64,000 nucleotides of DNA from assembly GCF_005144885.1 (NCBI RefSeq), contig NZ_CP039690.1:310001-374000 (forward strand), given 5' to 3'. This DNA is from Phreatobacter stygius (lineage in GTDB: Bacteria > Pseudomonadota > Alphaproteobacteria > Rhizobiales > Phreatobacteraceae). Position 1 is the stretch's first letter. The number at the start of each line of letters is the position of its first letter. The translations under genes were made by a program, and so were the position numbers. The notes under the pieces are model-generated. The model did not search any database and was not told where the DNA came from. It saw only the letters and a program-made list of their open reading frames with translations. Below are positions 23,032 to 39,806 of this stretch, piece by piece.

Positions 23032-23032
23032 C

Positions 23033-24016
23033 ATGGCCTCGCGCGATCTCGCCGTCTCGACCGAACGCTGGCCGATCGCCGGCACCTTCACCATCTCGCG
23101 CGGCTCGCGCACCGAGGCCGTCGTCGCGGTCTGCGAGATCCGGCAGGGCTCGGCGGTCGGGCGCGGCGAATGCGTGCCCTACCCGCGTTACGGCGAGACC
23201 GTGGACGGGGTCGCCGCCGAGATCGAGGCGATGATCGACCCGATCGACAACGGCCTCGACCGCCAGGGCTTGCTCGCCGCGATGAAGCCCGGGGCGGCGC
23301 GCAACGCCATCGATTGCGCGTTGTGGGATCTCGAGGCCAAGCTTGCTGGCAAGCGCGCCTGGGAGCTGGCCGGCATTGCCCCGCCGAAGCCGCTCACCAC
23401 GGTCTATACGATCTCGCTCGGCTCGCCCGAGGAAATGGCCCAGTCGGCCGCCCATTGCGGCCGCAGCCACCTGAAGATCAAGCTCGGCGGTGACGGCGAT
23501 GCCGACCGGCTGGCCGCCATTCGCGCCGCCGTGCCGGACGCGACCCTGGTGATCGATGCCAACGAGGCCTGGACCCCGGCCAATCTCGCCGCCAATCTGG
23601 CGGTTTGCGAACGTTTCCGCATTGCCATGGTCGAGCAGCCCTTGCCGGCCGCCGACGACGGCGCACTCGCCGGCATCAGGCGGCCGATCCCGATCTGCGC
23701 CGACGAAAGCGTGCACGACCGCAAGACCCTGGCCTCGCTGGTCGGCAAATATGACGCGATCAATATCAAGCTCGACAAGACCGGCGGGCTGACCGAAGCC
23801 TTCCTGCTCGCCGACGACGCCGAGAAGCTCGGTTTCAAGATCATGACCGGCTGCATGGTCGGCACATCCCTGTCGATGGCGCCAGCGACGCTGGTGGCGC
23901 AGCGCGCTTTCCTGGTCGACCTCGACGGCCCGCTGCTGCTGCGCGAGGACCGGCCCGAGGGCCTGCGTTACGACGGCGCCACCGTCTATCCGCCGGCGTC
24001 TTCCCTCTGGGGCTGA
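23033..24016 (+). CDS. dgcA: N-acetyl-D-glutamate racemase DgcA (enolase superfamily)
   Basis: 327 residues of the dipeptide-epimerase-like branch of the enolase superfamily. Catalytic residues are visible: Lys148/Lys150 in LKIKLGG, metal ligands Asp175 (VIDANEAW), Glu201 (VEQPLP) and Asp224 (CADESV), and the second base lysine in NIKLDKTGG near 246-249. With dgcN immediately upstream, it is expected to racemise N-acetyl-D-Glu rather than a dipeptide. Its 3' end overlaps the 3' end of the convergent MFS gene by 31 bases. Confidence 0.93.
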   Translation: MASRDLAVSTERWPIAGTFTISRGSRTEAVVAVCEIRQGSAVGRGECVPYPRYGETVDGVAAEIEAMIDPIDNGLDRQGLLAAMKPGAARNAIDCALWDLEAKLAGKRAWELAGIAPPKPLTTVYTISLGSPEEMAQSAAHCGRSHLKIKLGGDGDADRLAAIRAAVPDATLVIDANEAWTPANLAANLAVCERFRIAMVEQPLPAADDGALAGIRRPIPICADESVHDRKTLASLVGKYDAINIKLDKTGGLTEAFLLADDAEKLGFKIMTGCMVGTSLSMAPATLVAQRAFLVDLDGPLLLREDRPEGLRYDGATVYPPASSLWG

Positions 24017-25274: not shown

Positions 25275-26282
25275 ATGAGTGACGATACGAAAACACTGCC
25301 CGCCCGGCTCGACGATTACGACGCCATCGCGGCGGCGGTGATGGAGACCGCCCGCGGCCGCTGGTTTCTCGCCGAATATGCCAGGCGCCACCGCGCCGCC
25401 GACACGGCGGAAGTGCTCGATGCCATCGGCAAGCTGGAAAAGGTGATGGGCGCGGCGCGTCCCGCGCCCGAGATCGACCGCATCCGCATGGACATCCGCG
25501 AGATGGCCGGCGCGATCGCCCGCACCAAGACGGAAATCGCCGCGATCAAGCCCGAAGGCGTCGAAGGCGGCCGTTTCGAGGAAGCCTCCGTCGAGCTCGA
25601 CGCCATCGTCCAGGCGACCGCGACGGCCACCGGCGATATCCTGAGCGCGGCCGAAACCATCCAGGAAATCGCCTGGACGCTGCGCGAGATGGGCGCCGAG
25701 GGCGAGGTCTGCGACCTCATCGACACCAAGGCGACCGATATCTACGCCGCCTGCTCGTTCCAGGACGTGACCGGCCAGCGCACCCGCAAGGTGATCGGGG
25801 TGCTGCGCTTCCTGGAGGACCGGATCGATTCGATGATGGGCATCTGGGGCGATGCCGGTGTCGCCGCAGCGCCCTTGCCGGCCAAGGCCGGTGAGCCGTC
25901 GCTGCTGAACGGCCCGGCCCGGCCCGGCGAGGGCCTGGCCCAGGACGATGTCGACCTGATGATGGACGACGGCCTGTTCGAACAGCCCGCGGCGGCCCTT
26001 GCCGTCCGCCCGGCGACGTCTTCCGTCGTCCGTCCGGCGGCCTCTTCGGTCGTCCAGGCGGCGCCTTCGGTCGCGGCCGCGCCGGTCGCGCCGCATGACG
26101 TTCCCGTCGCGGCGCGCGCCACCGCGGCGGCGGCGCTGTCGACCGCCGACACGCCGCTGGCGCCGAGCCCGCGGCCTGCCCGCGCCGGTGCCGGCACCGG
26201 CGGCAAGGCGCCGGAAGGCCTGCCCTCGATCGAGGATATCGAGAAGCTGAGCTTCGTCGAAAAGGTTGCGGTGATGAGCTGA
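25275..26282 (+). CDS. cheZ: CheZ-like protein phosphatase
   Basis: 335 residues. The central helical region contains SFQDVTGQRTRKVI, matching the CheZ active-site segment FQDLTGQ; Asp164 and Gln168 correspond to E. coli Asp143 and Gln147, which position water for dephosphorylation of CheY-P. The N-terminal 180 residues form the long helical hairpin, then a 130-residue Ala/Pro/Val-rich linker, and the C-terminus ends IEDIEKLSFVEKVAVMS, as in the CheY-binding tail helix. No other chemotaxis gene is nearby, so it is an orphan. The phosphatase assignment rests on the active-site motif. Confidence 0.87.
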   Translation: MSDDTKTLPARLDDYDAIAAAVMETARGRWFLAEYARRHRAADTAEVLDAIGKLEKVMGAARPAPEIDRIRMDIREMAGAIARTKTEIAAIKPEGVEGGRFEEASVELDAIVQATATATGDILSAAETIQEIAWTLREMGAEGEVCDLIDTKATDIYAACSFQDVTGQRTRKVIGVLRFLEDRIDSMMGIWGDAGVAAAPLPAKAGEPSLLNGPARPGEGLAQDDVDLMMDDGLFEQPAAALAVRPATSSVVRPAASSVVQAAPSVAAAPVAPHDVPVAARATAAAALSTADTPLAPSPRPARAGAGTGGKAPEGLPSIEDIEKLSFVEKVAVMS

Positions 26283-26350
26283 GCCGAGCCCGGCTCGACG
26301 CGCGAGCCGGTGCCTTGGCCCGGTTGAACGAGATCATCGATGACGTCGAC

Positions 26351-27100
26351 ATGCCCGATATCCCGCCCACCCGGAGGCCGATCGTGCCACCCGTGAACGC
26401 AGCGCCCGAGCCGACACCGATCGTCCACTTCGATCGCGGCACGGTCCGGGCGCAGGTTCATGCCCAGTTGCGCCGGCTGGTCATGCTCGGCCGCTTCCGG
26501 CCTGGCCAGGCGCTGAAGCTGAACGATCTCGCCAATGCGCTGGGCACCAGCCTGCAGCCGGTGCGCGAGGCCGTGCGCCAGCTGGTCGCCGAAAAGGCCC
26601 TCGAGGCCTTGCCCAACCGCAGCGCCCGCGTGCCGCGCGCCGACCACGCCAAGCTCGATGATCTGCAACGCGTCCGCTTCGCCATCGAAGGCCTGGCCGC
26701 CGAGCTCGCGGCCGCCCGGGTCACCCGCGCCGACATCGCCACGCTGGACGCCATCGTCGAGGCCGAGGTCCGCGAACTGACGACCTCAGGGATCGAGGCT
26801 TCGGTGGCGCAGAACCTCGAATTTCATTTCGCGCTCTATCGCATGTCGGGATCGGCCATATTGCCGCCGATCATCGAGAGCCTGTGGCTGCAGTTCGGCC
26901 CGCATATGCGGCAGGCGGCGGACGCCTTTTATGCCGCCGACGACCGGGCGACCGACCACCACCGGGCCATCATCGTGGCGCTGAAGGAGCGCGACGTCAT
27001 GGCGGTGCGCGCGGCCGTCGAGCGCGATATCGGCCGCTCCTTCGACATCGTCAGGACCCTGCTCGACAAGCCGGGCACCGCCAAGCCGCGCCGCGCCTAG
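26351..27100 (+). CDS. GntR family transcriptional regulator (FCD/FadR-type)
   Basis: 249 residues. The winged-helix domain is at about residues 28-95, including LNDLANALGTSLQPVREAVRQLVAEKALEALPN-like recognition sequence. The C-terminal all-helical FCD domain contains LEFHFALYRMSGS and DHHRAIIVALKERD, with the Asp/His residues that bind a metal-coordinated effector. A 20-bp perfect palindrome containing TTGATCAA lies 200 bases downstream, before the livG start, and is the obvious candidate operator. The ATG at 26351 is preferred; a TTG 12 codons earlier is possible. It probably controls the following transporter-enzyme operon. Confidence 0.92.
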   Translation: MPDIPPTRRPIVPPVNAAPEPTPIVHFDRGTVRAQVHAQLRRLVMLGRFRPGQALKLNDLANALGTSLQPVREAVRQLVAEKALEALPNRSARVPRADHAKLDDLQRVRFAIEGLAAELAAARVTRADIATLDAIVEAEVRELTTSGIEASVAQNLEFHFALYRMSGSAILPPIIESLWLQFGPHMRQAADAFYAADDRATDHHRAIIVALKERDVMAVRAAVERDIGRSFDIVRTLLDKPGTAKPRRA

Positions 27101-27417
27101 AATGCAATCGTTTCGAAGTGAAGCGACCCGCGGAGGACGGCCTGTCCTCGATTCAGTGCTTCGATCCGGGGCGATCAGGCCCTAGCGCCGTCCCGCCGCC
27201 CCGGCGGATCAACCCCTGCCCACGATGCCGATGCGAGGCCGTGCCCGAAACTTGCGCTGGAACGGCACAAGAATAGGCTTGTGTGACATTGCGAACCGGA
27301 CCAATCTTTGATCAAAGATTGCCACGAGCAGGGACGACGACGTGCGGCAACCGCGGTGCCATAGCCAGGCAGGAGCCTCTTTCGACGCGACGACCGTCGG
27401 CCGATCGGGCGCGCGGC
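27101..27417 (+). promoter_or_regulatory. Promoter/leader region of the liv-molybdoenzyme operon
   Basis: 317 bases between the GntR gene and livG with no supported gene. It contains the perfect palindrome at 27302-27321 and a locally AT-richer stretch around 27270-27330, marking the likely promoter. No terminator for the GntR gene is obvious, so some read-through is possible. Confidence 0.6.
27302..27321. promoter_or_regulatory. Perfect 20-bp palindrome, candidate GntR operator
   Basis: CAATCTTTGATCAAAGATTG reads identically on both strands. GntR/FCD regulators bind short palindromes, often centred on GATC or similar in alphaproteobacteria. It stands 97 bases before the livG ATG and next to a GntR gene, so it is probably where that regulator represses the operon until its ligand is present. 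Confidence 0.75.
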
Positions 27418-28173
27418 ATGCTTGAGGTTCGCGACATCGCCGTCACCTTCGGGGCCTTGAAGGCGGTCGACGGCGTGTCGCTGAATTTTGCCTCCACTGC
27501 CATCACCGCCCTGATCGGGCCGAACGGCGCTGGCAAGACCACGCTGTTCAATCTGCTCGCCGGCACGCTGAAACCCCAGGCCGGCGAGATCCGGCTCGCC
27601 GGCGAACGCGTCGACGGCTTGCCGGCCCACGCCATGTTCCATCGTGGCCTCGCCCGTACCTTCCAGATCCCCCGGCCCTTCGGCGAGCTGAGCGTCCTGG
27701 AAAACCTGATGGTCGTGCCCGACGAGCGGCCGGGCGAGCGCTTCTACGACAACTGGATCGTCCCCGGCCGGGTGCGCCGGCGCGAGCTGGCGTTGCGCGA
27801 ACGCGCCCGCGAACTGCTCGATTTCGTCACGCTCGGCGCGCTCGCCGACCAGCCGGCACGTATCCTGTCGGGCGGCCAGCAGAAACTGCTCGAACTGGCG
27901 CGCGTGCTGATGGGTGACCCGAAGATGATCCTGCTCGACGAACCGGCGGCCGGGGTCAATCCGGCGCTCCTGCAGGTGATCGTCGAGCGGATCCAGGACA
28001 TCCACCGGCGCGGCATCGGCTTCGTCATCATCGAGCACAATATCGACCTGGTGACCCGCATCTGCGATCCCGTCGTGGTGATGGCCCAGGGCCGCGTGCT
28101 GACAACCGGCGACGCGGCGACCGTGCGCTCCGATCCACGCGTCATCGACGCCTATCTCGGCGACGCGCCATGA
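27418..28173 (+). CDS. livG: Branched-chain-type ABC transporter ATP-binding protein (LivG)
   Basis: 251 residues. Walker A GPNGAGKT, signature LSGGQQKLLELARVL, Walker B MILLDEPAAGVNP (the GVNP ending is typical of LivG-type ATPases). The start MLEVRDIAVTFGALKAVDGV fits the family. Its stop overlaps the livF ATG by 4 bases. Together with LivF it energises uptake by the LivHM permeases. The true substrate need not be a branched-chain amino acid, because the operon also encodes redox enzymes. Confidence 0.94.
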   Translation: MLEVRDIAVTFGALKAVDGVSLNFASTAITALIGPNGAGKTTLFNLLAGTLKPQAGEIRLAGERVDGLPAHAMFHRGLARTFQIPRPFGELSVLENLMVVPDERPGERFYDNWIVPGRVRRRELALRERARELLDFVTLGALADQPARILSGGQQKLLELARVLMGDPKMILLDEPAAGVNPALLQVIVERIQDIHRRGIGFVIIEHNIDLVTRICDPVVVMAQGRVLTTGDAATVRSDPRVIDAYLGDAP

Positions 28174-28937
28174 CCACCGAGACCGTGCCCACAAAGACCA
28201 TGGCCGAACCAAGCGCGCCGGCGCTCAGCGTCGAAGCCCTCTCCGCCGGTTATCACCGCGACCTGCCGATCGTGCGCGGCGCGGCGCTGACGGTGGCCTC
28301 GGGCGAGGTGGTGGCGCTGCTCGGCCCGAACGGCGCCGGCAAGTCGACACTGATGAAGGCGATCGCCGGCCTCGTCGGCATTTTCTCAGGCCAGGTCACG
28401 CTGTCGGGGGTTTCGGTCGCCGGTGTCGCCGCCGAGGACCTCGCCGCCGCCGGCCTCGGCTATGTGCCGCAGTTGCAAAACGTCTTCACCGGCCTGACGG
28501 TGGACGAGAACCTCAGGGCCGGTGCCCACCGGCTGCGTGGTTCGCTGGTCCGCGAGCGCATTGGCGCGGCCTATCACCGCTTTCCCGACCTGGTTCAGCG
28601 CCGCCGCGCCTATGGCGGCGAACTGTCCGGCGGCCAGCGCCAGATGCTGGCGATCGCCCGCGCGCTGATCATGCATCCGCGCGTGCTGTTGCTGGACGAG
28701 CCGAGCGCCGGCCTGTCGCCGAAGATCACCACCGAGATCTTCGCCGCGGTGCGGGCGATCGCCGCCGAAGGCGTCGCCGTGCTGATGGTCGAGCAGAACG
28801 TCAAGGCCGGCCTCGCCGCCGCCGACCGCGGCATCGTGCTGGTCGAAGGCCGGGTCGCCATGGCCGGGCCGGCGCAGGCGCTGGCCAATGATCCGGATCT
28901 GCGCAGGGTCTTCATGGGCGGGAGGGTTGCCGCGTGA
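28170..28937 (+). CDS. livF: Branched-chain-type ABC transporter ATP-binding protein (LivF)
   Basis: 255 residues. Walker A GPNGAGKS, signature LSGGQRQMLAIARAL, Walker B LLLDEPSAGLSP. The LSP ending after the Walker B region is typical of LivF. The ATG overlaps the livG stop (ATGA), and its own stop overlaps the livH GTG (GTGA), so the whole set is translationally coupled. A short N-terminal extension (about 15 residues) precedes the first strand. Confidence 0.94.
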   Translation: MTTETVPTKTMAEPSAPALSVEALSAGYHRDLPIVRGAALTVASGEVVALLGPNGAGKSTLMKAIAGLVGIFSGQVTLSGVSVAGVAAEDLAAAGLGYVPQLQNVFTGLTVDENLRAGAHRLRGSLVRERIGAAYHRFPDLVQRRRAYGGELSGGQRQMLAIARALIMHPRVLLLDEPSAGLSPKITTEIFAAVRAIAAEGVAVLMVEQNVKAGLAAADRGIVLVEGRVAMAGPAQALANDPDLRRVFMGGRVAA

Positions 28938-29833
28938 TCGCCCAGCTCATCGTCGACGGCATCATGACCGGCGCCATCCTGTCGCTCGGCGCGATCGGCA
29001 TCACGCTGGGCCTCGCCATCCTGCGCTTCGCCAATTTCGCCTATGCCGAACTGCTCACCGTTGGCGCCTATGCGACGCTGGCCGTGGTGCTCGCCATGGG
29101 CGGAACCGGAGTGCCGATCGACCCCTTCTCGTTCGGCGCCTATATCGGCCTGGCGCTGCTGGTCTCGCTGGCCGCGACCGGGCTTGCCGCGCTTGTCGGC
29201 GATGCCCTGGTGTTCGCGCCGCTGCGCCGGCGCAGCGCCGGGCCGCTGGTGCTGATCTTCGCCTCTTTCGGGCTGGCGCTGGTGGTGCGCAACCTGGTGC
29301 TGCTGATCTTCGGGCCGCAGCCGGAATATTATTCGCGCGAACTGCAGATGGCGATCCTGCTGCCCGGCGACATCAGGCTGATGCCCGACCAGGTGGTGGT
29401 GCTGGCCGCCGCCGTTTTGGCGCTCGGCGCGCTCTGGTGGGTGCTCAACCATACCCGCCACGGCCTCGCCATGCGGGCGGTCGCCGAAAACCCAGGCTTG
29501 GCGCAGACCTGCGCGATCAGTCCGAAGGCGGCGATCCGTGTCACCTGGCTGATCACCGGCGTGCTCGGCGCGCTCGGCGGCACGCTGTTCGGCCTCACCG
29601 TGCAACTGCGTCCCGAAATGGGCGCGAACCTGCTCTTGCCGCTGTTCACCGCCGCCGTGCTCGGCGGCGTCGGCAGCATTCCAGGCGCGGTCATCGGCGG
29701 GCTGTTCGTCGGCATTGCCGAAAACCTCTCCACCCTGGTCCTGCCCACCGCCTACAAGGCCATCGTGCCGTTCCTGATCATGCTCGCCTGTTTCTTCATC
29801 CGGCCCCAGGGCCTGTTCGGGCAAAGCCGATGA
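28934..29833 (+). CDS. livH: Branched-chain-type ABC transporter permease (LivH)
   Basis: 299 residues with about eight membrane helices, starting with IVDGIMTGAILSLGAIGITLG and the family segment RFANFAYAELLTVGAYATL. The conserved cytoplasmic loop TRHGLAMRAVAENPGLAQTCAI contacts the ATPase. The start is GTG at 28934, overlapping the livF stop. It forms the inner-membrane channel with LivM. Confidence 0.94.
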   Translation: MIAQLIVDGIMTGAILSLGAIGITLGLAILRFANFAYAELLTVGAYATLAVVLAMGGTGVPIDPFSFGAYIGLALLVSLAATGLAALVGDALVFAPLRRRSAGPLVLIFASFGLALVVRNLVLLIFGPQPEYYSRELQMAILLPGDIRLMPDQVVVLAAAVLALGALWWVLNHTRHGLAMRAVAENPGLAQTCAISPKAAIRVTWLITGVLGALGGTLFGLTVQLRPEMGANLLLPLFTAAVLGGVGSIPGAVIGGLFVGIAENLSTLVLPTAYKAIVPFLIMLACFFIRPQGLFGQSR

Positions 29834-30807
29834 CCGGGCTGCTCTCCTATTTCATCTTCTTCGCGACCATTGCCTCGATCTTCGCCATCGCGACGCTCGG
29901 GCTCAACCTGCAATGGGGCCAGTGCGGCCAGTTCAATGCCGGCGTCGTCGGCTTCATCGCGGTCGGCGCCTATACCCAGGCGATCCTGACCGTGCCGGCC
30001 AATCCGGAATTCGTCAGCGGCATCCAGTTGCCCTTCCCGCTCGCGCTCATCGCCAGCATGGCGGCGACCGTCGTGATCGCCACCGTCATCGGGCTCGCGA
30101 CGATCCGGCTGCGCACCGACTATCTGGCGCTCGCCACCTTCGGCATCGCCGCCACCATCCAGCTCCTGCTGATGAACCTCGACCCCGTCACCGGCGGCGG
30201 CCGCGGCATGCCGGGCGTGCCGCGGCCCTTCGCCTTCCTGCCGCCGCTCAGCTTCGCCGCCATCTATCTCGCCATGGCGGGCGGCGCGATGATCCTGTCC
30301 TATGTCGCGCTCGAACGCCTGGTGCGCTCGCCCTGGGGACGGGTGCTGCGCGCCATCCGCGACGACGAGACCGCTGCGGCTTCGCTCGGCAAGTCGGTCG
30401 AGGCTTTCCGGCTCACCGCCTTCGTCATCGGCGCGGCCTTCATGGGGCTCGCCGGCGCGCTTTATGCCTCGTTCATCGGTTATGTCAGCCCCTTCGACTT
30501 CCTGCCGATCATGACCTTCCAGGTCTGGGCCATGCTGATCGTCGGCGGCAGCGGCAGCAATCGCGGCGCCATTGTCGGCGCCTTCCTGGTCTGGGCGCTG
30601 TGGAGCCTGTCCGGCGTCGCGGTGGTATCATTCCTGCCGACCCGCCTGCAGACCCAGGGCGGCGCCATCCAGGCCATCATGATCGGCACCTTGCTGATCG
30701 GCACTTTGATCCTCAGGCCCAATGGCCTGATCGGCTCGGATGCGCGCCCCGGCGCGCTCACCCGCCGGAAACTTCGCAGCCTGAAACAGAACGGGAGACG
30801 GACATGA
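29830..30807 (+). CDS. livM: Branched-chain-type ABC transporter permease (LivM)
   Basis: 325 residues with about nine helices. LGLNLQWGQCGQFNAGVVGFIAVGAY-type sequence near the N-terminus and the cytoplasmic coupling loop SPWGRVLRAIRDDETAAASLGKSVEAFRL identify LivM. Its ATG overlaps the livH stop and its TGA overlaps the ATG of the binding protein gene. The C-terminal tail is a short basic stretch. Confidence 0.93.
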   Translation: MTGLLSYFIFFATIASIFAIATLGLNLQWGQCGQFNAGVVGFIAVGAYTQAILTVPANPEFVSGIQLPFPLALIASMAATVVIATVIGLATIRLRTDYLALATFGIAATIQLLLMNLDPVTGGGRGMPGVPRPFAFLPPLSFAAIYLAMAGGAMILSYVALERLVRSPWGRVLRAIRDDETAAASLGKSVEAFRLTAFVIGAAFMGLAGALYASFIGYVSPFDFLPIMTFQVWAMLIVGGSGSNRGAIVGAFLVWALWSLSGVAVVSFLPTRLQTQGGAIQAIMIGTLLIGTLILRPNGLIGSDARPGALTRRKLRSLKQNGRRT

Positions 30808-32081
30808 AGACGAAACTGACATTGGCCCTGTCCGCCTTGCTGCTGGCGGGCCTTGCCGCCGGGCCGGCCCAGGCCCAGGCCCCGGCCGTCAGCTGCCCGG
30901 TCCGCATCGGCGCGATCATTCCGCTGACCGGCCCGCAGGGGCCGATCGGCAAGCCGATCGCCGACACCGCGCAACTGGCGATCGAACACGTCAATGCCGC
31001 CGGCGGCATCAAGGGCTGCCCGGTCGAGCTCATCCTGCGCGACGATACCGGCCAGCCGACCGTCGGCCTGGAGGCCGCGCGCTTCCTGGTCGACGTCCAG
31101 AAGGTGCCGGCGATCGTCGGCGTGGTCGGCAGCGGCATCGCGCTGCCGATCGTCTCCTCGGTCACGACGGCCGCCCGCATTCCCCTGGTCTCGTGCTGCG
31201 CGGTGACCCCAACCCTCACCGCCATGGCCGAGCAGGGCCGGACCGACGGCTATTTCTTCCGCACCATCCCGACCTCGCGGGTGATGGGCGTCGCCCATGC
31301 GGTGGCGGCGACCGACCGCAGCTACAAGAGGGTCGCGGTCATCTATGTGAACAATGATTTCGGCCTGACCTTGCAGAACGACTTCAAGAAGGCGTTCGAG
31401 GCCATGGGCGGCAGCGTCGCCGGCGCCTTCGCCTATAACGAGAACCAGCCGTCCTACCGCGCCGAGGTCAACCAGGCATTGGCCCTGAAACCCGACGCCC
31501 TGGTGCTGCTCGCACTGTCGCAGGACGGCGCCACCATTGCCCGCGAATGGATCTCGCTCGGCGGGCCGCAGACCATGATCCTGCACAACACGCTGCGCTC
31601 GGACGACTTCATCAAGGCGGTCGGCGAGCGTTTCCTCGGCCGCGCCGCCGGCATCGACAATGCCCAGGTCGCCGGCCCCTCGGTCGATGCCTTCAACGCC
31701 GCCTATCAGGCCAAGTTCGGCCGTCCGCCGGTCGGACCCGGCCTGCACACCGTCTATGATTCCGTCGTCGTCACCGCGCTCGCCATGCAGGCGGCGGCGA
31801 CCCTCGACGGCACCGCGATCCGCGACCAGATGCGCCAGGTCACCGATCCCGCCGGCACCGAGGTTCTGCCCGGCGTCGACGGCATCCGCCGCGCCCTGGA
31901 GCTCCTGAAGGCCGGCACCCGCATCCGTTATGTCGGCGCCACCGGGCCGTTCCAGTTCGACAAGAACGGCGACGTCTCCGGCCCGGCGCTGATCTGGAAG
32001 ATCGAAGGCGGCCGGCTGGTCACCGAGCGTGTCATCGCGCTCGACGAGATGGCCGCCTTCTTCAAGCGTATCGGCTTTTGA
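30804..32081 (+). CDS. Periplasmic substrate-binding protein, Leu/Ile/Val-binding type
   Basis: 425 residues with a signal peptide (MKTKLTLALSALLLAGLAAG..AQA). The mature protein begins with the family strand VRIGAIIPLTGPQGPIG and LAIEHVNAAGGIKG, the type I periplasmic fold used by LivK, amide- and aromatic-compound-binding proteins. Paired cysteines (SCPV and KGCP; later VSCCAVTP) may form disulfides. It selects the substrate for the LivGFHM transporter. The ligand cannot be read from sequence; the downstream enzymes suggest an organic compound that is oxidised or reduced after uptake. Confidence 0.92.
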   Translation: MKTKLTLALSALLLAGLAAGPAQAQAPAVSCPVRIGAIIPLTGPQGPIGKPIADTAQLAIEHVNAAGGIKGCPVELILRDDTGQPTVGLEAARFLVDVQKVPAIVGVVGSGIALPIVSSVTTAARIPLVSCCAVTPTLTAMAEQGRTDGYFFRTIPTSRVMGVAHAVAATDRSYKRVAVIYVNNDFGLTLQNDFKKAFEAMGGSVAGAFAYNENQPSYRAEVNQALALKPDALVLLALSQDGATIAREWISLGGPQTMILHNTLRSDDFIKAVGERFLGRAAGIDNAQVAGPSVDAFNAAYQAKFGRPPVGPGLHTVYDSVVVTALAMQAAATLDGTAIRDQMRQVTDPAGTEVLPGVDGIRRALELLKAGTRIRYVGATGPFQFDKNGDVSGPALIWKIEGGRLVTERVIALDEMAAFFKRIGF

Positions 32082-32095
32082 GCAGGAGTGATCAG

Positions 32096-33148
32096 GTGGC
32101 CGCGGAACGTATCGAACTGGCGCCAGGCTACGACGTCTCGCGCATCACCAAGGGCAATTGGCAATTGGCCGAGCGTCATGGCGACGCGGTCGAGAAGGAC
32201 CAGGCCATCGACGACATGCGGCGTTTCGTCGAGGCCGGGTTCACCAATTTCGACTGCGCCGACCACTATGTCGGCGTCGAGGAACTGATCGGCGCGTTTC
32301 GCAAGCGCCATCCGGACCTCGCCCGGCTCCTGACGGTGCAGACCAAGGTGGTGCCGGACCGCGACCTGCTGCCGGTGCTGAAATATGCCGACATCGCCTT
32401 CCTGGTCGACCGGGCGCTCGCCCGCCTCGGCGTCGAACGGCTCGATCTCGTCCAGTTCCATTGGTGGGACTATGACGTGCCGGGATATGTCGAGGCCATG
32501 GGCTGGCTGAGCGATATGCAGGCCAAGGGCAAGATCTGGCAGGTCGGCACCACCAATTTCGACTGCCCGCGGCTGGAGGAGATCATCGCCAGCGGCGTGA
32601 CGGTGGCCAGCAACCAGCTGCAATATTCCGTGCTCGACCGCCGGCCCGAACATGGCATGGCTGATCTCGCCGAGAAGCACGGCATGGCGCTGCAGTGTTA
32701 CGGGGTGATCGCCGGCGGCTTCCTGTCGGAGCGCTGGCTCGGCGCCGCCGAGCCGGAGCCGCCATTGGCCAACCGGTCGCTGGTCAAATACCGGTTGATC
32801 ATCGACGAGTTCGGCTCCTGGTCGCTGTTCCAGGACATGTTGCGCACGCTCGCCGCGATCGGCGCCAAACACGGCGTCAGCCTGTCGGCGGTGGCGACAC
32901 GCTATGTGTTGGACAAGCCGCAGGTGGCGACCGCCATTGTCGGCGCGCGCACCGCGGCGCACCTGGCCGATCTCGTGGCGGTGGCATCGCTTGATCTCGA
33001 CGACGCCGACAAGGCGGCGATCGCTACGGTGGTCGCCAAGGCCTCCGGCCCGGAGGGCGATTGCTACAGCCTCGAGCGCGTGCCGGGCGGCCGGCACAGC
33101 AGCATCATGTGGACCAACCAGAACACCAAGGGGGTCGGTGCCCGCTGA
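32096..33148 (+). CDS. Aldo/keto reductase
   Basis: 350 residues from the GTG at 32096, chosen because AGGAG lies about 7 bases upstream; a TTG at 32078 is also in frame. The catalytic tetrad of the AKR fold is visible: Asp53, Tyr58, Lys84 and His122 (TNFDCADHY, VQTKV, VQFHWWD). The later GKIWQVGTTNFDCPRL and ATAIVGARTAAHL fit the NADP(H)-binding end. It is a cytoplasmic NAD(P)H-dependent carbonyl reductase or dehydrogenase. It follows the binding protein gene by 14 bases within the operon, so its substrate is probably the imported compound or a product of it. Confidence 0.9.
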   Translation: MAAERIELAPGYDVSRITKGNWQLAERHGDAVEKDQAIDDMRRFVEAGFTNFDCADHYVGVEELIGAFRKRHPDLARLLTVQTKVVPDRDLLPVLKYADIAFLVDRALARLGVERLDLVQFHWWDYDVPGYVEAMGWLSDMQAKGKIWQVGTTNFDCPRLEEIIASGVTVASNQLQYSVLDRRPEHGMADLAEKHGMALQCYGVIAGGFLSERWLGAAEPEPPLANRSLVKYRLIIDEFGSWSLFQDMLRTLAAIGAKHGVSLSAVATRYVLDKPQVATAIVGARTAAHLADLVAVASLDLDDADKAAIATVVAKASGPEGDCYSLERVPGGRHSSIMWTNQNTKGVGAR

Positions 33149-33165
33149 CGGCGCCGGAGACAGCC

Positions 33166-33513
33166 ATGAGCGACGATGCCTTCGAGCTCTTCGACCTCAA
33201 GGTGGAGGTCGTCCACCGCGACACGTCGCGGCCAATGGTCTGCCGGCACAAGGAAGGCGACTATTTCTTCCTGCGCGGCGGCGTCATGGAGTTTCCTCAG
33301 GACAGGCCAACCTTCGGTTATTACGCCATGCTGGCCGTCTTGCCCTTCCTGATGGCCAAGCAGCGGCCGACCCAGCGCTGCGACTGGATGTCGACGGATG
33401 GCGATATCGGCTGCACCGACCCCAATTGCGGCGCAGCCTTCCGCATTACGCGGCTGGCCCCCAAGACCTATCGGCATAGCGAATATACCAAGGTGCCGCT
33501 CGATCCGATGTAG
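33166..33513 (+). CDS. TIGR04076 family protein
   Basis: 115 residues. The pattern LKVEVVHRD, then FFLRGGVMEF.. and a Cys-bearing stretch QRCDWMSTDGDIGCTDPNC, ending FRITRLAP, fits the small uncharacterised TIGR04076 family. Four cysteines (one in MVCRHKEGD, three in the later segment) could bind a metal or act in redox chemistry; this is inference. It lies 17 bases after the aldo/keto reductase gene and 30 bases before the molybdoenzyme gene, so it is part of the same operon and likely assists one of them. Confidence 0.85.
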   Translation: MSDDAFELFDLKVEVVHRDTSRPMVCRHKEGDYFFLRGGVMEFPQDRPTFGYYAMLAVLPFLMAKQRPTQRCDWMSTDGDIGCTDPNCGAAFRITRLAPKTYRHSEYTKVPLDPM

Positions 33514-33543
33514 ATTGGGCCATCACTGGAACGGCGGCAGCCC

Positions 33544-36500
33544 ATGGCAGTCGAGATCCCCGGCTATTGCACGCTTTGCCGCTCGCGCTGCGGAACGCTC
33601 AATACCGTCGACAACGGCCGGCTGATCAAGGTCGCGCCGCTGCCCGGCCATCCGACCGGACGTGCGGTCTGCGCCAAGGGCCGGGCGGCGCCGGAGCTCG
33701 CCCATTCGTCGCGGCGGCTGACCCAGCCGCTCCGGCGCACCACGCCCAAGGGCTCGGCCGATCCCGGCTGGGTGCCGATCTCCTGGGACGCGGCGCTCGG
33801 CGAGATCGCGACGCGGCTCGGTGACATCAAGCAGCGCCATGGCGCCGAGGCCGTCGCCTTCGCCGTGACCTCGCCGAGCGCCACCCCGATCGTCGACAGC
33901 CTGGAATGGATCGAACGCTTCATCCAGCTGTTCGGCAGCCCCAATGTCTGCACCGCCACCGAGATCTGCAACTGGCAGAAGGATGTCGCCCACGGCTTCA
34001 CCTTCGGCGTCCCCTTGCCGCTGCCGGACTACGCCAATACCGACCTGATCATCCTCTGGGGCCACAATCCCGCGAGCGTCTGGCTGGCGGAGGCCGGCGA
34101 ACTCGCCGAGGCGCAGCGCCGCGGCGCCCGGCTCGCGGTCATCGATCCGCGCCGGACTGGCCATGCCGGCCAGGCCGATCATTGGCTGGCGGTGCGCCCG
34201 GGCACCGATGCCGCGCTGGCGCTGGGGCTTGCGCACCTCGTCATCGCCTCCGGCGGCTTCGACCGGAATTTCGTCCGCGCCTGGACCAATGGGCCGCTGC
34301 TGGTGCGCGCCGACACCGGACGGTTCCTCCGGATGCGCGATGTCGACCCGACGGCCGACAGCGCGCATTTTGCAGCCTTCGACCAGGCGGCGGGCCAGGT
34401 GGTGGCCTATGATCGCCGGCGCGACCCCGAAGCTGCCTGGGCGAAAGACCTGGCGCTCGAGGGTGCCTTCGAGGTCGCCGGCATGTCCTGCCGCCCGGCC
34501 TTCGACCTCTATGCCGCGCGCTGCGCCGAATTTCCGGTCGAACGGGTCGCCGGCATCACCGGCGTCGACGCCGACAAGATCGTCGCCCTGGCGGATGCGA
34601 TGGCAGAGGCCCGGGCCGTCTCCCATTTCGCCTGGACCGGTATCGGCCAGCACGCCAACTCCACCCAGACCTCGCGCGCCATGGCGACGCTTTATGCCTT
34701 GACCGGCAGTTTCGACGCCAAGGGCGGCAATGTCGTACCGACCCCGCTCGCCGCCAATCCGATCAGCGAGCCGGCGCTGCTGGCCGAAAGCCAGCGCATG
34801 AAGGCGCTCGGCGCCAAGGATCGGCCGATCGGGCCGGCGGCGCTCGGCATGGTCACCGCGCGCGAGCTCTATACCGCCATCCTCGAAGCCCGGCCTTATC
34901 GCGTCCGCGCGCTGATGACCTTCGGCGCCAACATGCTGCTGTCGCGCGGCGACGCCATGATGGGCCGTAACGCCCTGCAGGCGCTCGATTTCGCCGTCCA
35001 CTGCGATCTCTTCGACAATCCGACCGCCCAGCAAGCCGACATTCTCCTGCCCGTCGGCAGCCCCTGGGAACGCGAGGGCCTGAAGCTCGGCTTCGAGGTG
35101 ACCCAGGAGGCGCAGGAACTCATCCAGCTTCGTGCCGCCATGATCCCGCCTGTCGGCCAGTCCCGTTCGGATGCCGAGATCGTCTGCGACCTCGCCCGCC
35201 GGCTCGGTTTTGCCGATCGCATGTTCGACGGCGACATCGAGGCGGGCTGGCGGCACCGCCTCGCCCCGCTCGGCCTGACACTCGAGGCGCTCCGCGCCAA
35301 TCCCGCCGGCATCCGGCGCCCGGTCGAGACCCGCTATCGCAAACATGCCGACGCCGGGCCCCAGGGCATCCGCGGTTTCGCGACCGAAACGGCGCGGGTC
35401 GAACTCTATTCCGAGAAGATGCTGCGCAACGGCCAGGCGCCGCTGCCGGATTTCGACGATCCCGTCAACGCCCCCCTCGCGGCCGGTATCGAACGTCCCT
35501 TCGTCCTGACCTGCGCCAAGAGCCCCTATTATTGCCATAGCCAGCACCGCCAGGCGGCATCGCTGCGCCGGCGGGCGCGCGAGCCCATGGTCGCGCTCGC
35601 CGACAACATCGCCGAGGCCAGGGCGATCGCCGAGGGCGACTGGGTCCAGGTGTCGACGCGCTCGGCCAGCGTTCGCTTCAGGGCGACCATCGACCGGTCG
35701 CTCGCCCGCGACGTCGCGGTCGCCGATTTCGGCTGGTGGCGCTCGATGCCCGATCTCGGCTTGCCGGGTTACGACCCCTTCTCGGATGAGGGCAGCAATT
35801 TCAACCGGCTGATCGATGCCGATCATGCCGATCCGGTGAGCGGCGCCCCCTCGCTCAAATCGTTCGCCTGCGACATCAGGCCGGTGGAAACCGCGCGCGT
35901 CTCGCCCTGGCGCGGCCGGCGATCCCTCAGCGTCGTCGCGCGGCAGGACGGACCTGGCGGCGTGGTGGAACTGGCACTTGCCGGCGACGGCGGCGGCCAG
36001 CTGCCGCCGTTCCGGCCGGGCCAGCACGTTTCGGTCGGGCTCGACATTCCCGGCAGCGGCCCGGTCGAGCGCTCCTATTCGCTCTGCGGCGCCAGCGGGC
36101 CCGACGGCACCGAGCGCTATCGCATCGCCATCAAGCCGATCCGCGGCGCCGGGCAGGCCGGGCTTTTCTCGTCCTTCTCGGCCGCATCGCTAGCAGCCGG
36201 CAGCCGGATCGACATGCGGGCGCCGTCAGGCGATTTCATCATCCCGGCCGCCGCCGACTTTTCCGTCGTGCTGATCGCGGCCGGCATCGGCATCACGCCG
36301 TTTCTCGGCTATCTCCGGGCGCTGCAAGGCGCGCCGTCGGCGCCGGAGGTGGTGCTGCACTATGGCAGCCGGAACGCAGCGCTTCACGTCTTTCACGCCG
36401 AGATCGCGACGCTGGCGGGCGCCTTGCCCTCGCTCCGTCTCGTCACCCATTTCAGCCAACCGGGCCCGGATGATGTTTGCGACGCCGCCGGCCGGATCGA

Positions 36501-36933
36501 CGCCATGAGCATCGACCAGGACCTGATCGAGCGGCGCGCCCGCTTCTATCTCTGCGGGCCAGGCGGCATGATCGCCGAGATCACCCAAGGGTTGATCGGC
36601 CGCGGCGTGCCGGCCTTCGAGATTTTCAGCGAAGTGTTCGTGTCGCCGCCGCCGCGCCCCACGGCGGTGGGCGACGCCGGCCGCTTCGCCGTCACCTTCG
36701 CCCGCTCCGGGCGCACGGCCATCTGGTCGCCCGAACGCGGCGACCTGCTCGCCTTTGCCGAGGAGCTCGGCCTGTCGCTGCCATCCGGCTGCCGCGTCGG
36801 CCAATGCGAGAGCTGCGCGCTGACCGTGCTCGACGGCGCGGTGACCCACCAGGTGGCCATCGCCGATCTCGACGAGGGTGTCTGCCTGTCATGCCAGGCG
36901 GTGCCGGCTTCCGATCTCGTCCTCGACGCCTGA
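33544..36933 (+). CDS. Molybdopterin oxidoreductase fused to FAD/NAD reductase and 2Fe-2S ferredoxin
   Basis: 1,129 residues in three parts. (1) Residues 1 to about 780: an N-terminal 4Fe-4S site, Cys9-X2-Cys12-X3-Cys16-X26-Cys43, then the DMSO-reductase-family molybdopterin fold with a candidate Mo ligand Cys142 in TEICNWQKD, and a C-terminal dinucleotide-binding domain (CAKSPYYCHSQHRQ). (2) About 785-1035: a phthalate-dioxygenase-reductase-like module with FAD motif RSYSL (843-847), GIGITP (914-919) and CGPGG (1004). (3) About 1045-1129: a plant-type 2Fe-2S ferredoxin, Cys1083-X4-Cys1088-X2-Cys1091-X25-Cys1117. The chain NAD(P)H-FAD-2Fe2S-4Fe4S-Mo is thus within one polypeptide. No Tat signal, so cytoplasmic. 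The substrate is unknown; assimilatory nitrate reductase or formate dehydrogenase labels would be guesses. Confidence 0.92.
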   Translation: MAVEIPGYCTLCRSRCGTLNTVDNGRLIKVAPLPGHPTGRAVCAKGRAAPELAHSSRRLTQPLRRTTPKGSADPGWVPISWDAALGEIATRLGDIKQRHGAEAVAFAVTSPSATPIVDSLEWIERFIQLFGSPNVCTATEICNWQKDVAHGFTFGVPLPLPDYANTDLIILWGHNPASVWLAEAGELAEAQRRGARLAVIDPRRTGHAGQADHWLAVRPGTDAALALGLAHLVIASGGFDRNFVRAWTNGPLLVRADTGRFLRMRDVDPTADSAHFAAFDQAAGQVVAYDRRRDPEAAWAKDLALEGAFEVAGMSCRPAFDLYAARCAEFPVERVAGITGVDADKIVALADAMAEARAVSHFAWTGIGQHANSTQTSRAMATLYALTGSFDAKGGNVVPTPLAANPISEPALLAESQRMKALGAKDRPIGPAALGMVTARELYTAILEARPYRVRALMTFGANMLLSRGDAMMGRNALQALDFAVHCDLFDNPTAQQADILLPVGSPWEREGLKLGFEVTQEAQELIQLRAAMIPPVGQSRSDAEIVCDLARRLGFADRMFDGDIEAGWRHRLAPLGLTLEALRANPAGIRRPVETRYRKHADAGPQGIRGFATETARVELYSEKMLRNGQAPLPDFDDPVNAPLAAGIERPFVLTCAKSPYYCHSQHRQAASLRRRAREPMVALADNIAEARAIAEGDWVQVSTRSASVRFRATIDRSLARDVAVADFGWWRSMPDLGLPGYDPFSDEGSNFNRLIDADHADPVSGAPSLKSFACDIRPVETARVSPWRGRRSLSVVARQDGPGGVVELALAGDGGGQLPPFRPGQHVSVGLDIPGSGPVERSYSLCGASGPDGTERYRIAIKPIRGAGQAGLFSSFSAASLAAGSRIDMRAPSGDFIIPAAADFSVVLIAAGIGITPFLGYLRALQGAPSAPEVVLHYGSRNAALHVFHAEIATLAGALPSLRLVTHFSQPGPDDVCDAAGRIDAMSIDQDLIERRARFYLCGPGGMIAEITQGLIGRGVPAFEIFSEVFVSPPPRPTAVGDAGRFAVTFARSGRTAIWSPERGDLLAFAEELGLSLPSGCRVGQCESCALTVLDGAVTHQVAIADLDEGVCLSCQAVPASDLVLDA

Positions 36934-36995
36934 CGCGGACCGGCCGGCTCGCCCCATCGCATCGCCACCCCTCAACCGGCAAGCCGCGTGACCGG

Positions 36996-37985
36996 TCAGA
37001 CCGTCACGACGATCTTGCCGAACTGGTCGTTCGATTCCAGGAAACGATGCGCCTCGACGATCTCCTCGAAGGCAAAGGTCCTGGCGATGACCGGCCGGAG
37101 CGAACCCGACGCGAGCCCGTCGAGGATGAACGCCTTGGCGGCTTCCAGCCGCGCCGGATCGCCGGTGATCTCGTGGACGAGATAGCCGCGCAAGGTCAGG
37201 CTCTTGGCCAGCACCGCGAACAGCGGAAAGGGTGTCGGCTCGGGACTCAGGCCACCATATTCGATGAGCACGCCGCCACGTGACATCGCGGCCGTCAGCG
37301 GCTCGAATATCGGGCCGCCGATCGGGTCGAACGCCACGCGCACGCCCTCGGGGCCCGCGATGTCGGTCAGCCGGCCCCCCAGGTCTTCTTCCGCGGAGGC
37401 AATGACATACGCGGCGCCAGCCTCGCGCAAAGCCTGCGCCTTGGCCGATGTCCGGGTCACCGCGATGGTGGTCGCGCCCACCCTGTTGGCGATCTGGATC
37501 GCGGCAAGCCCGACGCTGCTCGATGCCGCGGTGATGACGACACGGTCTTGCGCGCCGAGCCTGGCGATGTCGATCAGCGCACCATAAGCGGTGAGATAGG
37601 GCATCCAGACCGCGGCCGCGGCTTCAAAGCTGAGCGATGGCGGATGCCTGACGACCAGTTCAGCCGGAAACGTCGCGAGATCGCCATAGGCAGGCCAACG
37701 GACCATCGACCTCGGCGGCACGATGCTGACCGCCTCGCCCGGCGCGAAACCGGCGACGCCTTCACCGACCGTCTCGACGAGGCCCGCCGCCTCCAGGCCA
37801 AGACCTGATGGCAGAACCGGCGTCTCGATGTAAGAGCCCGAGCGCAGCAGGGCCTCGGCCCGGTTGAGGCCCAGCGCCTTGACGCGGATCCGCACCTCGC
37901 CCCGGCCGGGCCGGGCAAGATCGACGGTCTCGATGCGCAGAACCTCGGGACCGCCATGCCGGTGAAAGCGAACAACCCGCGCCAT
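36996..37985 (-). CDS. Zinc-independent alcohol dehydrogenase / quinone oxidoreductase family
   Basis: 329 residues of the medium-chain dehydrogenase superfamily. The N-terminal GroES-like part starts MARVVRFHRHGGPEVLRIE; the nucleotide-binding motif is VVITAASSSVGLAAIQIAN (AxxxxVG type, as in quinone oxidoreductases). The structural-zinc cysteine cluster is absent, which points to NADPH:quinone reductase-like enzymes. It is divergent from a LysR gene across 103 bases, the usual arrangement for a regulator and its target. The ATG at 37985 begins exactly at the domain; an open stretch further upstream is not part of it. Confidence 0.9.
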   Translation of the reverse strand: MARVVRFHRHGGPEVLRIETVDLARPGRGEVRIRVKALGLNRAEALLRSGSYIETPVLPSGLGLEAAGLVETVGEGVAGFAPGEAVSIVPPRSMVRWPAYGDLATFPAELVVRHPPSLSFEAAAAVWMPYLTAYGALIDIARLGAQDRVVITAASSSVGLAAIQIANRVGATTIAVTRTSAKAQALREAGAAYVIASAEEDLGGRLTDIAGPEGVRVAFDPIGGPIFEPLTAAMSRGGVLIEYGGLSPEPTPFPLFAVLAKSLTLRGYLVHEITGDPARLEAAKAFILDGLASGSLRPVIARTFAFEEIVEAHRFLESNDQFGKIVVTV

Positions 37986-38019
37986 TGGCGACAACTCCAA
38001 ATGAATTGAACTGAATAAG

Positions 38020-38037
38020 CTATGGGGGCTGGCATAG
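38020..38037. promoter_or_regulatory. Dyad CTATG-N8-CATAG, candidate LysR site
   Basis: In the 103-bp gap between the divergent quinone oxidoreductase and LysR genes, CTATG at 38020-38024 pairs with CATAG at 38033-38037. LysR proteins bind short dyads in such gaps. Support is positional only. Confidence 0.4.
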
Positions 38038-38088
38038 ATCAGATAAATGGCCTCAGAGCTTCGACAGTCGAAACCAGGGGTTTTGAAT

Positions 38089-38988
38089 ATGGATCGCCTG
38101 ACCAGCATGGCCGTATTCGTCAAGGCCATCGATCTCGGCTCGTTCGCAGCGGCTGCCGCAGCACTCGATCTCTCCGGGCCGATGGTCGGCAAACATGTCC
38201 GGTTTCTCGAAGAGCGCCTGGGCATGCGCCTGATCAACCGGACCACCCGGCGCCAGAACCTGACCGATGTCGGCCGCGCCTATTATGACCGCTGCCGGGT
38301 GGTGCTCGCCGAGGCCGAGGCCGCGGATGCGCTGGCGACCGACCAGCTGTCCGAACCGCGCGGCAAGCTGCGCGTCACCATGCCCGTGCATTTCGGCCGG
38401 CACTGCGTCACCCCCGTCCTGCTGGAGCTGGCGCGGCAATATCCGGCGCTGGAACTGGACCTGTCGTTCAGCGATCGCATCGTCGATCTGGCCGAGGATG
38501 GCTATGATCTCGCCATCCGGACCGGTGATCTCGACGACAAGGCCGGGGTGATCGCGCGGCGCGTCGCGCGCCAGCGCATGGTCGTCTGCGCCGCGCCGGC
38601 CTATCTCGGCATGCATGGCCGGCCGGGGCAGGTCGAGGATCTCCCCCAGCACCACGCCATCATCTACCGCCGGTCGGGCCGCATTCGCCCCTGGCTGTTT
38701 CCGCGCCCGGGCCAGCCTCCGCTGGAGGTCACGCCGGTGAACCGGCTGCGGCTCGACGACCTCGATGCCATCGCCGATGTGGCGGCCGCCGGCATGGGGC
38801 TCGCCTGGCTGCCCTCCTGGCTGGTGCGCGAGCGCATCCAGGCCGGCGCGCTTGTCGTGGTCCTGCCGGACCAGCCGGAATTTCTCTACGACGGTTATGC
38901 GCTATGGCCGCAGACGCCGCACCTGCCGCTGAAGGTTCGCCTTGCCGTCGATGCGCTGGCGGCGGCCTTGCCCAGGTTCATGACCTGA
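38089..38988 (+). CDS. LysR family transcriptional regulator
   Basis: 299 residues. The N-terminal helix-turn-helix is FVKAIDLGSFAAAAAALDLSGPMVGKHVRFLEERLGMRLINRTTRR-type sequence (residues 8-53), and the rest is the type 2 periplasmic-like effector domain (LRVTMPVHFGRH, LDLSFSDRIVDLAEDGYDLAIRTG). The close relatives are CrgA-like regulators that control divergent oxidoreductases. The ATG at 38089 is preferred over one 14 codons earlier, matching the normal start MDRLTSMAVFVKA. The likely target is the divergent quinone oxidoreductase gene. Confidence 0.93.
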   Translation: MDRLTSMAVFVKAIDLGSFAAAAAALDLSGPMVGKHVRFLEERLGMRLINRTTRRQNLTDVGRAYYDRCRVVLAEAEAADALATDQLSEPRGKLRVTMPVHFGRHCVTPVLLELARQYPALELDLSFSDRIVDLAEDGYDLAIRTGDLDDKAGVIARRVARQRMVVCAAPAYLGMHGRPGQVEDLPQHHAIIYRRSGRIRPWLFPRPGQPPLEVTPVNRLRLDDLDAIADVAAAGMGLAWLPSWLVRERIQAGALVVVLPDQPEFLYDGYALWPQTPHLPLKVRLAVDALAAALPRFMT

Positions 38989-39034
38989 ACGGCGCGGCCG
39001 CGGTCCGCCGTAGCGAGCTTGCGCGAATTCCGGT

Positions 39035-39769
39035 CTAACCCGCCCAGATCGTCGCCGTTTCGCGTTCGAGCGCCGCGATGATGCAGGCCGCCACCGGGTG
39101 CATGTGCTTGGCCGGATCCGGCTCGATCTCGGCCCTGGCCGAGAACCGTCCGAACCGGCTGTCGACCGACAGCCCGAGCACATGGGCGCCGCCCGGCCCG
39201 GGATCGTCGAGCCTGACCGTGGCGTTCCCGACGCCCGGGCCGGCGAGCGCCGCCGCGACGGCAATATTGATCTCGTTGGCATGACGCAGCACGGCGTCGT
39301 CCAGCCGGCCGGCGAAAACCTCACCGGCCGCGCCCGCCATGCCCGGGCGCGACGCCGTGACATGGAGACGCGCCTCAGGGTCGATCGCGGCCGCCGCGAC
39401 GCCGTCGAGGCCGCCGAGCGCGCCCGGCAGCAAGCGCAGCCGGTGACCATGGGTGCGGCCGGCGGTCTCCAGGCTGGCGAACAGCTCGGCCGCGGCGAGC
39501 GCGCTGGCGCTGACCGTCCAGACATCGGCCAGGGCGAGCGCCCGCGCCCCATAAAGGCGCAGCGCCTCCGGACCGGCGGCCTCGATGATCAGATCGGCCG
39601 GATCGGCGAAAAACCGCTCCGGATCCGCGGTCGCCTCGGGCACCCCGGCGGCTCGCGCCTCACGCACCAGGCACCGGCCCAGGCGCCATTGGGCCGAGGT
39701 CCTGAGATAAGCGAGCACCGGACGCGCTATGCGTCCAGCCCCGATGACACCAATGCGTCTGGCTTCCAT
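39035..39769 (-). CDS. L-aspartate dehydrogenase-like protein (DUF108 family)
   Basis: 244 residues. An N-terminal Rossmann motif (RRIGVIGAGRIARPVLAYL) is followed by the family segment VWTVSASALA, a Gly-rich LLPGALGGLDGVAAAA and the C-terminal ANEINIAVAAALAGPGVGNATVRL, which resembles the DUF108 domain of NAD(P)-dependent aspartate dehydrogenases (NadX type). Such enzymes interconvert L-aspartate and iminoaspartate. The gene follows the threonine-dehydratase-like gene by 37 bases on the same strand, so the two probably share a pathway of amino acid deamination. No other NAD-synthesis gene is near. Confidence 0.87.
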   Translation of the reverse strand: MEARRIGVIGAGRIARPVLAYLRTSAQWRLGRCLVREARAAGVPEATADPERFFADPADLIIEAAGPEALRLYGARALALADVWTVSASALAAAELFASLETAGRTHGHRLRLLPGALGGLDGVAAAAIDPEARLHVTASRPGMAGAAGEVFAGRLDDAVLRHANEINIAVAAALAGPGVGNATVRLDDPGPGGAHVLGLSVDSRFGRFSARAEIEPDPAKHMHPVAACIIAALERETATIWAG

Positions 39770-39806
39770 CGATCGACGTCACCGCCGGGGGTACCGCGCC
39801 TTTGCC

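Follow-up and report, generated by a model that had tools for sequence, protein, structure and literature searches.

HAAT-type ABC uptake operons (Liv, Urt) with a local GntR regulator are among the closest described relatives of a gene cluster that we analysed in Phreatobacter stygius, within a 64,000-nucleotide stretch (the window) covering positions 310001-374000 of the single-contig 7.35-Mb genome; they share with it the order of the transporter genes, the protein classes and the pairing of a local regulator with a palindromic site. The cluster differs from them in that its transporter scores below all curated Liv and Urt cutoffs and goes with an aldo/keto reductase (AKR) and a TIGR04076 protein, joined in 19 of 21 loci by RidA or an aspartate dehydrogenase-like (AspDH-like) enzyme. 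Its last gene encodes a fusion, here called MoFus, of a molybdoenzyme of the bis(molybdopterin guanine dinucleotide) (bis-MGD) type with a flavin/NAD reductase and a C-terminal 2Fe-2S domain. MoFus has in common with acetylene hydratase and the catechol dehydroxylases a cysteine at the molybdenum-ligand position and one 4Fe-4S motif, but unlike them it includes its flavin/NAD and 2Fe-2S reductase within a single polypeptide and has a ketimine reductase as neighbour in 5 of 19 other loci; with reductases of the phthalate dioxygenase reductase/PaaE type it shares flavin, NAD and C-terminal 2Fe-2S domains in identical order, whereas here the module is fused to a molybdoenzyme and the operon contains no oxygenase gene. 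RidA deaminases and pyrroline/piperideine-2-carboxylate reductases share with the operon the theme of imine hydrolysis or imine reduction, and our literature search found no described pathway that joins either of them with AKR, TIGR04076 and MoFus. A TIGR04076 protein likewise stands beside a catabolic cluster in Bilophila, that for isethionate (IslAB), where the authors propose redox reactions or iron-cluster metabolism; the part of the published table concerned shows no AKR, Liv or MoFus genes (PMC8667426). That table entry was the only occurrence of TIGR04076 found in the open-access literature, in which neither DUF3830 nor the gene set of the operon was found; most subscription papers lay outside the search.

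Proposed function of the cluster

The cluster is very probably an inducible catabolic island. Our best overall explanation, to which we give a little under even credence, is the import and catabolism of a small nitrogenous acid by way of an imine, with MoFus as an NAD(P)H-driven molybdenum reductase; that the chemistry centres on an imine is, taken by itself, slightly favoured. A GntR/FCD repressor would sit on the palindrome and come off once it binds a small organic acid taken up by the cell or a compound derived from that acid; LivGFHM and the binding protein would import a nitrogen-containing carboxylic compound, which would pass through an imine (C=N) inside the cell. In most Liv-bearing relatives, RidA would hydrolyse this imine to a carbonyl, to be handled by AKR and the TIGR04076 protein; in the Phreatobacter lineage, MoFus and the AspDH-like enzyme would occupy RidA's place. 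There MoFus, driven by NAD(P)H through flavin and 2Fe-2S, would form the imine by reducing the compound in an oxidised state (an N-oxide, an oxime or a hydroxylated ring), and interconversion of imine and amino acid would fall to the AspDH-like enzyme. An imine as the MoFus product would explain both the adjoining imine reductases and the replacement of RidA by MoFus and AspDH. The earlier note on this DNA had proposed a small organic acid or nitrogen compound as substrate, of which the nitrogen compound now appears the likelier class. If the imine reading is true, TIGR04076 gains a testable role, as does the family of fused molybdenum reductases that plasmids of many genera carry, and the reading points to a class of nitrogenous nutrients used by bacteria that carry AKR and TIGR04076.

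The operon lies on an inserted segment

Open reading frames and domain families, the latter assigned by Pfam domains and by NCBIfam models with curated cutoffs, place the GntR gene, the palindrome and all eight genes behind it (livGFHM, binding protein, AKR, TIGR04076, MoFus) where the earlier note had put them (Table 1). Of the seven gene junctions, four overlap by 4 bp and two leave gaps of 17 and 30 bp; the remaining one, between binding protein and AKR, overlaps by 4 bp only if AKR starts at TTG, the alternative being a GTG at 32096, with AGGAG ahead, which leaves a gap of 14 bp.

Overlooked in the earlier note were the AspDH-like gene and the 13.5-kb insertion itself. Our genus sample comprised 12 genomes, 10 of them without the operon; in 5/5 of these that were examined the site is empty and the gene at 25275-26282 directly adjoins a PALP gene, so that 26283-39806 is the inserted part and the AspDH-like gene belongs to it. 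TIGR04076 occurs in 2/12 genus genomes, namely the window genome and G961, which we take to be the same assembly as locus L009 because the coordinates match. The AspDH-like gene is found in the same two genomes, and the neighbouring PALP gene in 11/12. L009 contains livF to MoFus at 85-97% identity, its contig beginning within livF. At the corresponding place L009 has no counterpart of the quinone reductase and LysR genes at 36996-38988, its LysR orthologue lying on another contig, so these two genes are probably not part of the system. The AspDH-like protein passes the Pfam cutoffs for Asp_DH_C (28.4 bits, cutoff 27) and NAD_binding_3 (37.3 bits, cutoff 24), and its relatives in the L037 (LA6 plasmid) and L080 clusters are 42% and 29% identical to it, respectively.

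AKR and TIGR04076 form a recurrent core

TIGR04076 homologues were found in 20/385 genomes of the class, own genome included, and all 21 other loci were fetched. AKR adjoins TIGR04076 in 20 of these 21 genome loci (L095 has no AKR), and on plasmids it lies within 100 bp of TIGR04076 in 22/26 records, two of the 22 being from one strain; the remainder are one haloarchaeal record with AKR 3.4 kb away and three Rhodococcus records without AKR at E <= 1e-50. The pair is found in Hyphomicrobiales, Rhodobacterales, other alphaproteobacteria and one haloarchaeon. Its AKR subfamily is marked by an invariant QxxWW, and the window AKR has all of D59, Y64, K90 and H128, which we take to be the Asp-Tyr-Lys-His catalytic tetrad. 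Cys26, Cys83 and Cys88 of TIGR04076 are nearly invariant in the bacterial proteins; the haloarchaeal protein (L040 9584-9919) lacks all three, which means that the family can do without a cysteine metal site.

Liv genes accompany the pair in 12/21 genome loci and in 7/8 plasmid loci (neighbourhoods were inspected for 8 of the 26 records), which with the window and L009 makes 21 Liv-bearing loci; binding proteins related to that of the window are present in them. The pair stands without Liv in 8/21 genome loci (a ninth is L095, without AKR; L088 and L091 lie near contig ends), the haloarchaeal pair has a peptide ABC transporter annotated alongside, and L090 has TRAP-like genes recognised by eye only, so Liv is a usual but replaceable partner. 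The separation of enzymes from transporter that the earlier note had named as counting against its operon reading is therefore encountered in part.

With two ABC_tran, two BPD_transp_2 and a Peripla_BP_6 protein in one operon, the transporter falls in the broad HAAT class. This Liv-type architecture, together with best solved relatives of the binding protein that are annotated as branched-chain or Leu/Ile/Val binders, would also fit a plain uptake operon for branched-chain amino acids that is followed by unrelated enzyme genes. We consider this very unlikely: all five proteins fall far below the NCBIfam Liv cutoffs (LivG 215.8/362, LivF 160.3/441, LivH 96.9/379, LivM 135.1/366, binding protein 51.6/477 bits), and, leaving the window genome and L009 aside, there are 19 loci in which Liv accompanies AKR and TIGR04076. 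The Urt cutoffs are missed as well (UrtD 186.1/304.1, UrtE 202.1/285.8, UrtB 119.3/250.3, UrtC 91.7/296.2, UrtA 33.8/492.75).

Several of the fetched loci have further neighbours. L080, the closest AKR-TIGR04076 relative outside the genus, carries behind the pair a xanthine-oxidase-type molybdenum hydroxylase (7036-9674; 2Fe-2S subunit and MoCoBD large subunit), whose class differs from that of MoFus. A kynureninase gene lies near the pair in L083 (14401-15648), and kynureninase and indoleamine dioxygenase are annotated about 9 kb from it in L040 (19624-21014).

The regulator and its probable operator

Homologues of the window GntR occur at E <= 1e-10 in 10/30 other loci searched. The palindrome, CAATCTTTGATCAAAGATTG, has one exact copy in the whole genome. 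Palindromes of at least 20 bp number three in the window, against a mean of 0.23 expected from mononucleotide shuffles of the window; length by itself is weak evidence, and recurrence beside GntR genes of other genera is strong evidence. Indeed, the 16-bp core (27304-27319) is found exactly in L039 (Alloyangia) and L083, with one mismatch in L086, and with 3-4 mismatches in L041, L042, L043 and L044, each adjoining GntR. It is located between the conserved part of the GntR gene (41-58% identical to the window GntR) and the next gene, overlapping the annotated GntR start in L041. Window included, a core with 0-4 mismatches adjoins GntR in 8/11 GntR-bearing loci; in the other three (L037, L038, L090) no match at 0-4 mismatches was found. 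When the same 1.07 Mb was shuffled once by mononucleotide, matches with 0, 1, 2, 3 and 4 mismatches numbered 0, 0, 2, 2 and 8, respectively, and the real loci also contain some 4-mismatch matches away from GntR, so the cores with 3-4 mismatches count as evidence because of their location. Given this recurrence beside homologous GntR genes of other genera, the palindrome is probably the GntR operator. In L086, GntR and core are present and Liv genes were not found within the fetched stretch, which suggests that regulator and site track the AKR-TIGR04076 pair rather than the transporter.

MoFus: cofactors, relatives and likely direction

In an alignment of 25 rows, C9, C12, C16 and C43, which we take to be the 4Fe-4S ligands, and C142, presumably the molybdenum ligand and aligned with the acetylene hydratase cysteine, are invariant in 25/25. 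R843 and Y845 of the flavin motif, as well as C1083, C1088, C1091 and C1117 (assumed to be the ligands of a plant-type 2Fe-2S domain), are invariant in the rows that cover them; five unfused rows have no flavin or 2Fe-2S positions, and the L024 piece ends before the 2Fe-2S domain. Molybdopterin and Molydop_binding domains, the 4Fe-4S cysteines and the molybdenum-ligand position put the first half in the DMSO reductase (bis-MGD) superfamily, which does oxygen-atom transfer. The second half is a phthalate-dioxygenase-reductase module, with an NAD domain and with RxYS and C-terminal CX4CX2C...C, taken here as flavin and 2Fe-2S motifs. The phthalate dioxygenase reductase and flavohaemoglobin reductase families take electrons from NAD(P)H; residues 788-1121 align with the former (2pia) and also match the reductase domains of the latter. 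No leader peptide was seen on inspection by eye, and this, together with the NAD(P)H-type reductase half, makes a cytosolic NAD(P)H-driven reductase the simplest reading. We lean towards MoFus working as a reductase; that it performs N-O reduction in particular is doubtful.

Among solved structures, acetylene hydratase matches MoFus best, with 180.8 bits in the single-sequence comparison (runner-up 150.3) and 324.5 in the profile comparison (runner-up 281.9), and a MoFus homologue in Azospirillum (L010) lies 7.6 kb from a 3-hydroxyanthranilate dioxygenase gene (1862-2416). Dehydroxylation is reported among acetylene hydratase relatives in PMC7028382. MoFus might then be a reductive dehydroxylase of the acetylene hydratase/catechol dehydroxylase branch that removes C-OH from an aromatic or N-heterocyclic acid with NAD(P)H; this seems unlikely, as the similarity to acetylene hydratase, a matter of best hits, is distant, and only with a cyclic imino acid as product would one expect ketimine reductases next to MoFus. 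It is more improbable still that MoFus is an assimilatory nitrate reductase or formate dehydrogenase standing here by chance, as its general similarity to the Fdh-alpha and NasC models and the annotation of the LA6 plasmid copy as nasC might suggest. Both models are missed by far (Fdh-alpha 230.3 of 666.25 bits; NasC, NF047855, 148.4 of 1100), and MoFus genes of two separate clades occur in the AKR-TIGR04076-type cluster. Formate dehydrogenases have Cys/Sec followed by His at the molybdenum site, whereas the position after the ligand is Asn143 in MoFus and Asn, Gly or Thr in 25/25 rows.

MoFus homologues occur in 11/249 genomes of the order (E <= 1e-100) and 5/398 of the phylum (E <= 1e-150), two counts that include the own genome; they also occur in 39 plasmid records of many genera (E <= 1e-80), 12 of whose neighbourhoods were inspected. 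We compared 19 fused MoFus loci besides the window and L009, the own paralogue and L037 among them. In five (L025, L045, L047, L052, L054) an ornithine-cyclodeaminase-family gene on the same strand adjoins MoFus or is one gene off, a transporter gene lying between the two in L047; all five proteins score above the curated threshold for pyrroline/piperideine-2-carboxylate reductase (390-422 bits against 322). The cyclodeaminase near the own-genome paralogue instead passes the cutoff for true ornithine cyclodeaminase. Short-chain fatty acid transporter genes accompany MoFus in L024, L045 and L047. The paralogue itself (C1:5107644-5111026; L024 9642-13027) is 46% identical, its similarity split over two frames near the C-terminus, and adjoins a GntR-like gene as well as the short-chain fatty acid transporter gene.

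In the MoFus tree, L037 groups with this second copy (100/100), and the window copy groups with L009 (100/100) and then with Azospirillum L010 (81/96). Two separate clades indicate that MoFus joined the AKR-TIGR04076-type cluster twice; it is an optional, late part, present in 3/21 Liv-bearing loci and always with AspDH. An import-plus-redox operon under a local GntR, as first proposed, is upheld, since transporter, AKR and TIGR04076 recur together in other genera, with GntR homologues in about one third of loci; MoFus as a fixed member is not, the recurrent partners being RidA or AspDH.

RidA, AspDH and the case for an imine

RidA was counted whether separate or fused behind a second AKR, within fetched stretches of mostly 15-21 kb. 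The 21 Liv-bearing loci divide into 15 with RidA, four with AspDH (window, L009, L080, L037), none with both and two with neither; these two, L038 and L096, have a DAO (FAD amine-oxidase-type) gene. MoFus is present in 3/4 AspDH loci (window, L009, L037) and in 0/15 RidA loci. In the AKR tree L037 groups with the RidA loci L042 and L098 (100/100), far from the window, L009 and L080; AspDH rows in two well separated places force at least two changes, most simply two origins of the AspDH state.

Besides L038, L089, L093 and L096, the MoFus loci L025 and L028 have DAO genes. Those that were tested matched L-pipecolate oxidase best among the curated models, scoring 149 to 442 bits against a cutoff of 600. 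MoFus could accordingly act in the oxidative direction, using NAD(P)+ to dehydrogenate an amine or an amino acid (D- or N-substituted) in place of the FAD amine oxidase of sister clusters, and ketimine reductases near MoFus in other loci would suit such a role. This too we think improbable: modules of the phthalate-dioxygenase-reductase type normally pass on electrons taken from NAD(P)H, and L025 carries DAO and MoFus together, so the two are not simple substitutes. Keeping to the reductive direction, we tentatively suggest that MoFus may represent a new class of molybdenum reductase: cytosolic, self-contained, powered by NAD(P)H and producing alpha-imino acids (from, for example, oximes, nitrones, N-hydroxy or ring-hydroxylated acids), with an imine reductase of its own as partner (AspDH or pyrroline/piperideine-2-carboxylate reductase). 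On two occasions it would have taken RidA's place in an AKR-TIGR04076 catabolic system that is older and undescribed.

A number of observations weigh against an imine-centred cluster with a reductive MoFus. L080 has AspDH without MoFus; the Fisher p of 0.0025 for RidA versus AspDH loci ignores the relatedness of the loci, and in a tree test labels were as clustered as observed in 61/500 shuffles for RidA and 12/500 for AspDH. The end of a contig or of a fetched stretch may also conceal either gene, L009 and L080 both beginning at the end of a contig. No AspDH-like protein reaches any of the NCBIfam AspDH cutoffs, the best score in the window being 71.6 of 177; the window and L080 copies are only 29% identical; and the window gene is 2 kb away on the opposite strand, behind the quinone reductase and LysR genes. 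Among the 19 other fused MoFus loci, 18 lack TIGR04076 and the AKR subfamily (L037 being the exception) and 14 lack a pyrroline/piperideine-type ketimine reductase. Of 30 AKRs next to TIGR04076, 10 (L037 among them) have Tyr, Phe or Cys where the catalytic His is expected, and some of these may not be ordinary carbonyl reductases. Finally, the favoured model would name a substrate class and no particular substrate.

Features of the window

Table 1. Features of the inserted segment, in window positions
Feature	Position	Strand	Basis
Inserted segment	26283..39806	no strand	absent between the same two core genes in 5/5 relatives examined
GntR/FCD transcriptional regulator	26315..27100	+	FCD 70 bits, GntR 52 bits; ATG alternatives 26340, 26351
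Perfect 20-bp palindrome, probable GntR operator	27302..27321	no strand	sequence recurrence beside GntR genes
livG-type ABC ATPase	27418..28173	+	ABC_tran
livF-type ABC ATPase	28170..28937	+	ABC_tran
livH-type permease	28934..29833	+	BPD_transp_2
livM-type permease	29830..30807	+	BPD_transp_2
Periplasmic binding protein	30804..32081	+	Peripla_BP_6
Aldo/keto reductase (AKR), distinct subfamily	32078..33148	+	Aldo_ket_red, 214 bits
TIGR04076 protein	33166..33513	+	TIGR04076.1, 53.3 bits, cutoff 33
MoFus, 1129-aa molybdoenzyme-reductase fusion	33544..36933	+	Molybdopterin + Molydop_binding + NAD_binding_1 + Fer2
AspDH-like dehydrogenase, part of insertion	39035..39769	-	Asp_DH_C + NAD_binding_3

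Elsewhere in the window, a 2130-aa protein with seven apolipoprotein-like stretches is encoded at 9989-16381 and a 954-aa protein with an autotransporter domain at 43365-46229. A DUF1611 gene adjoins an enolase-superfamily gene at 21976-24016, a place kept in 5/5 relatives examined. A perfect 32-bp palindrome, GCGTCGAGGCCGGTGGCCACCGGCCTCGACGC, lies at 63641-63672, about 100 bp upstream of the start of the minus-strand open reading frame 62556-63536.

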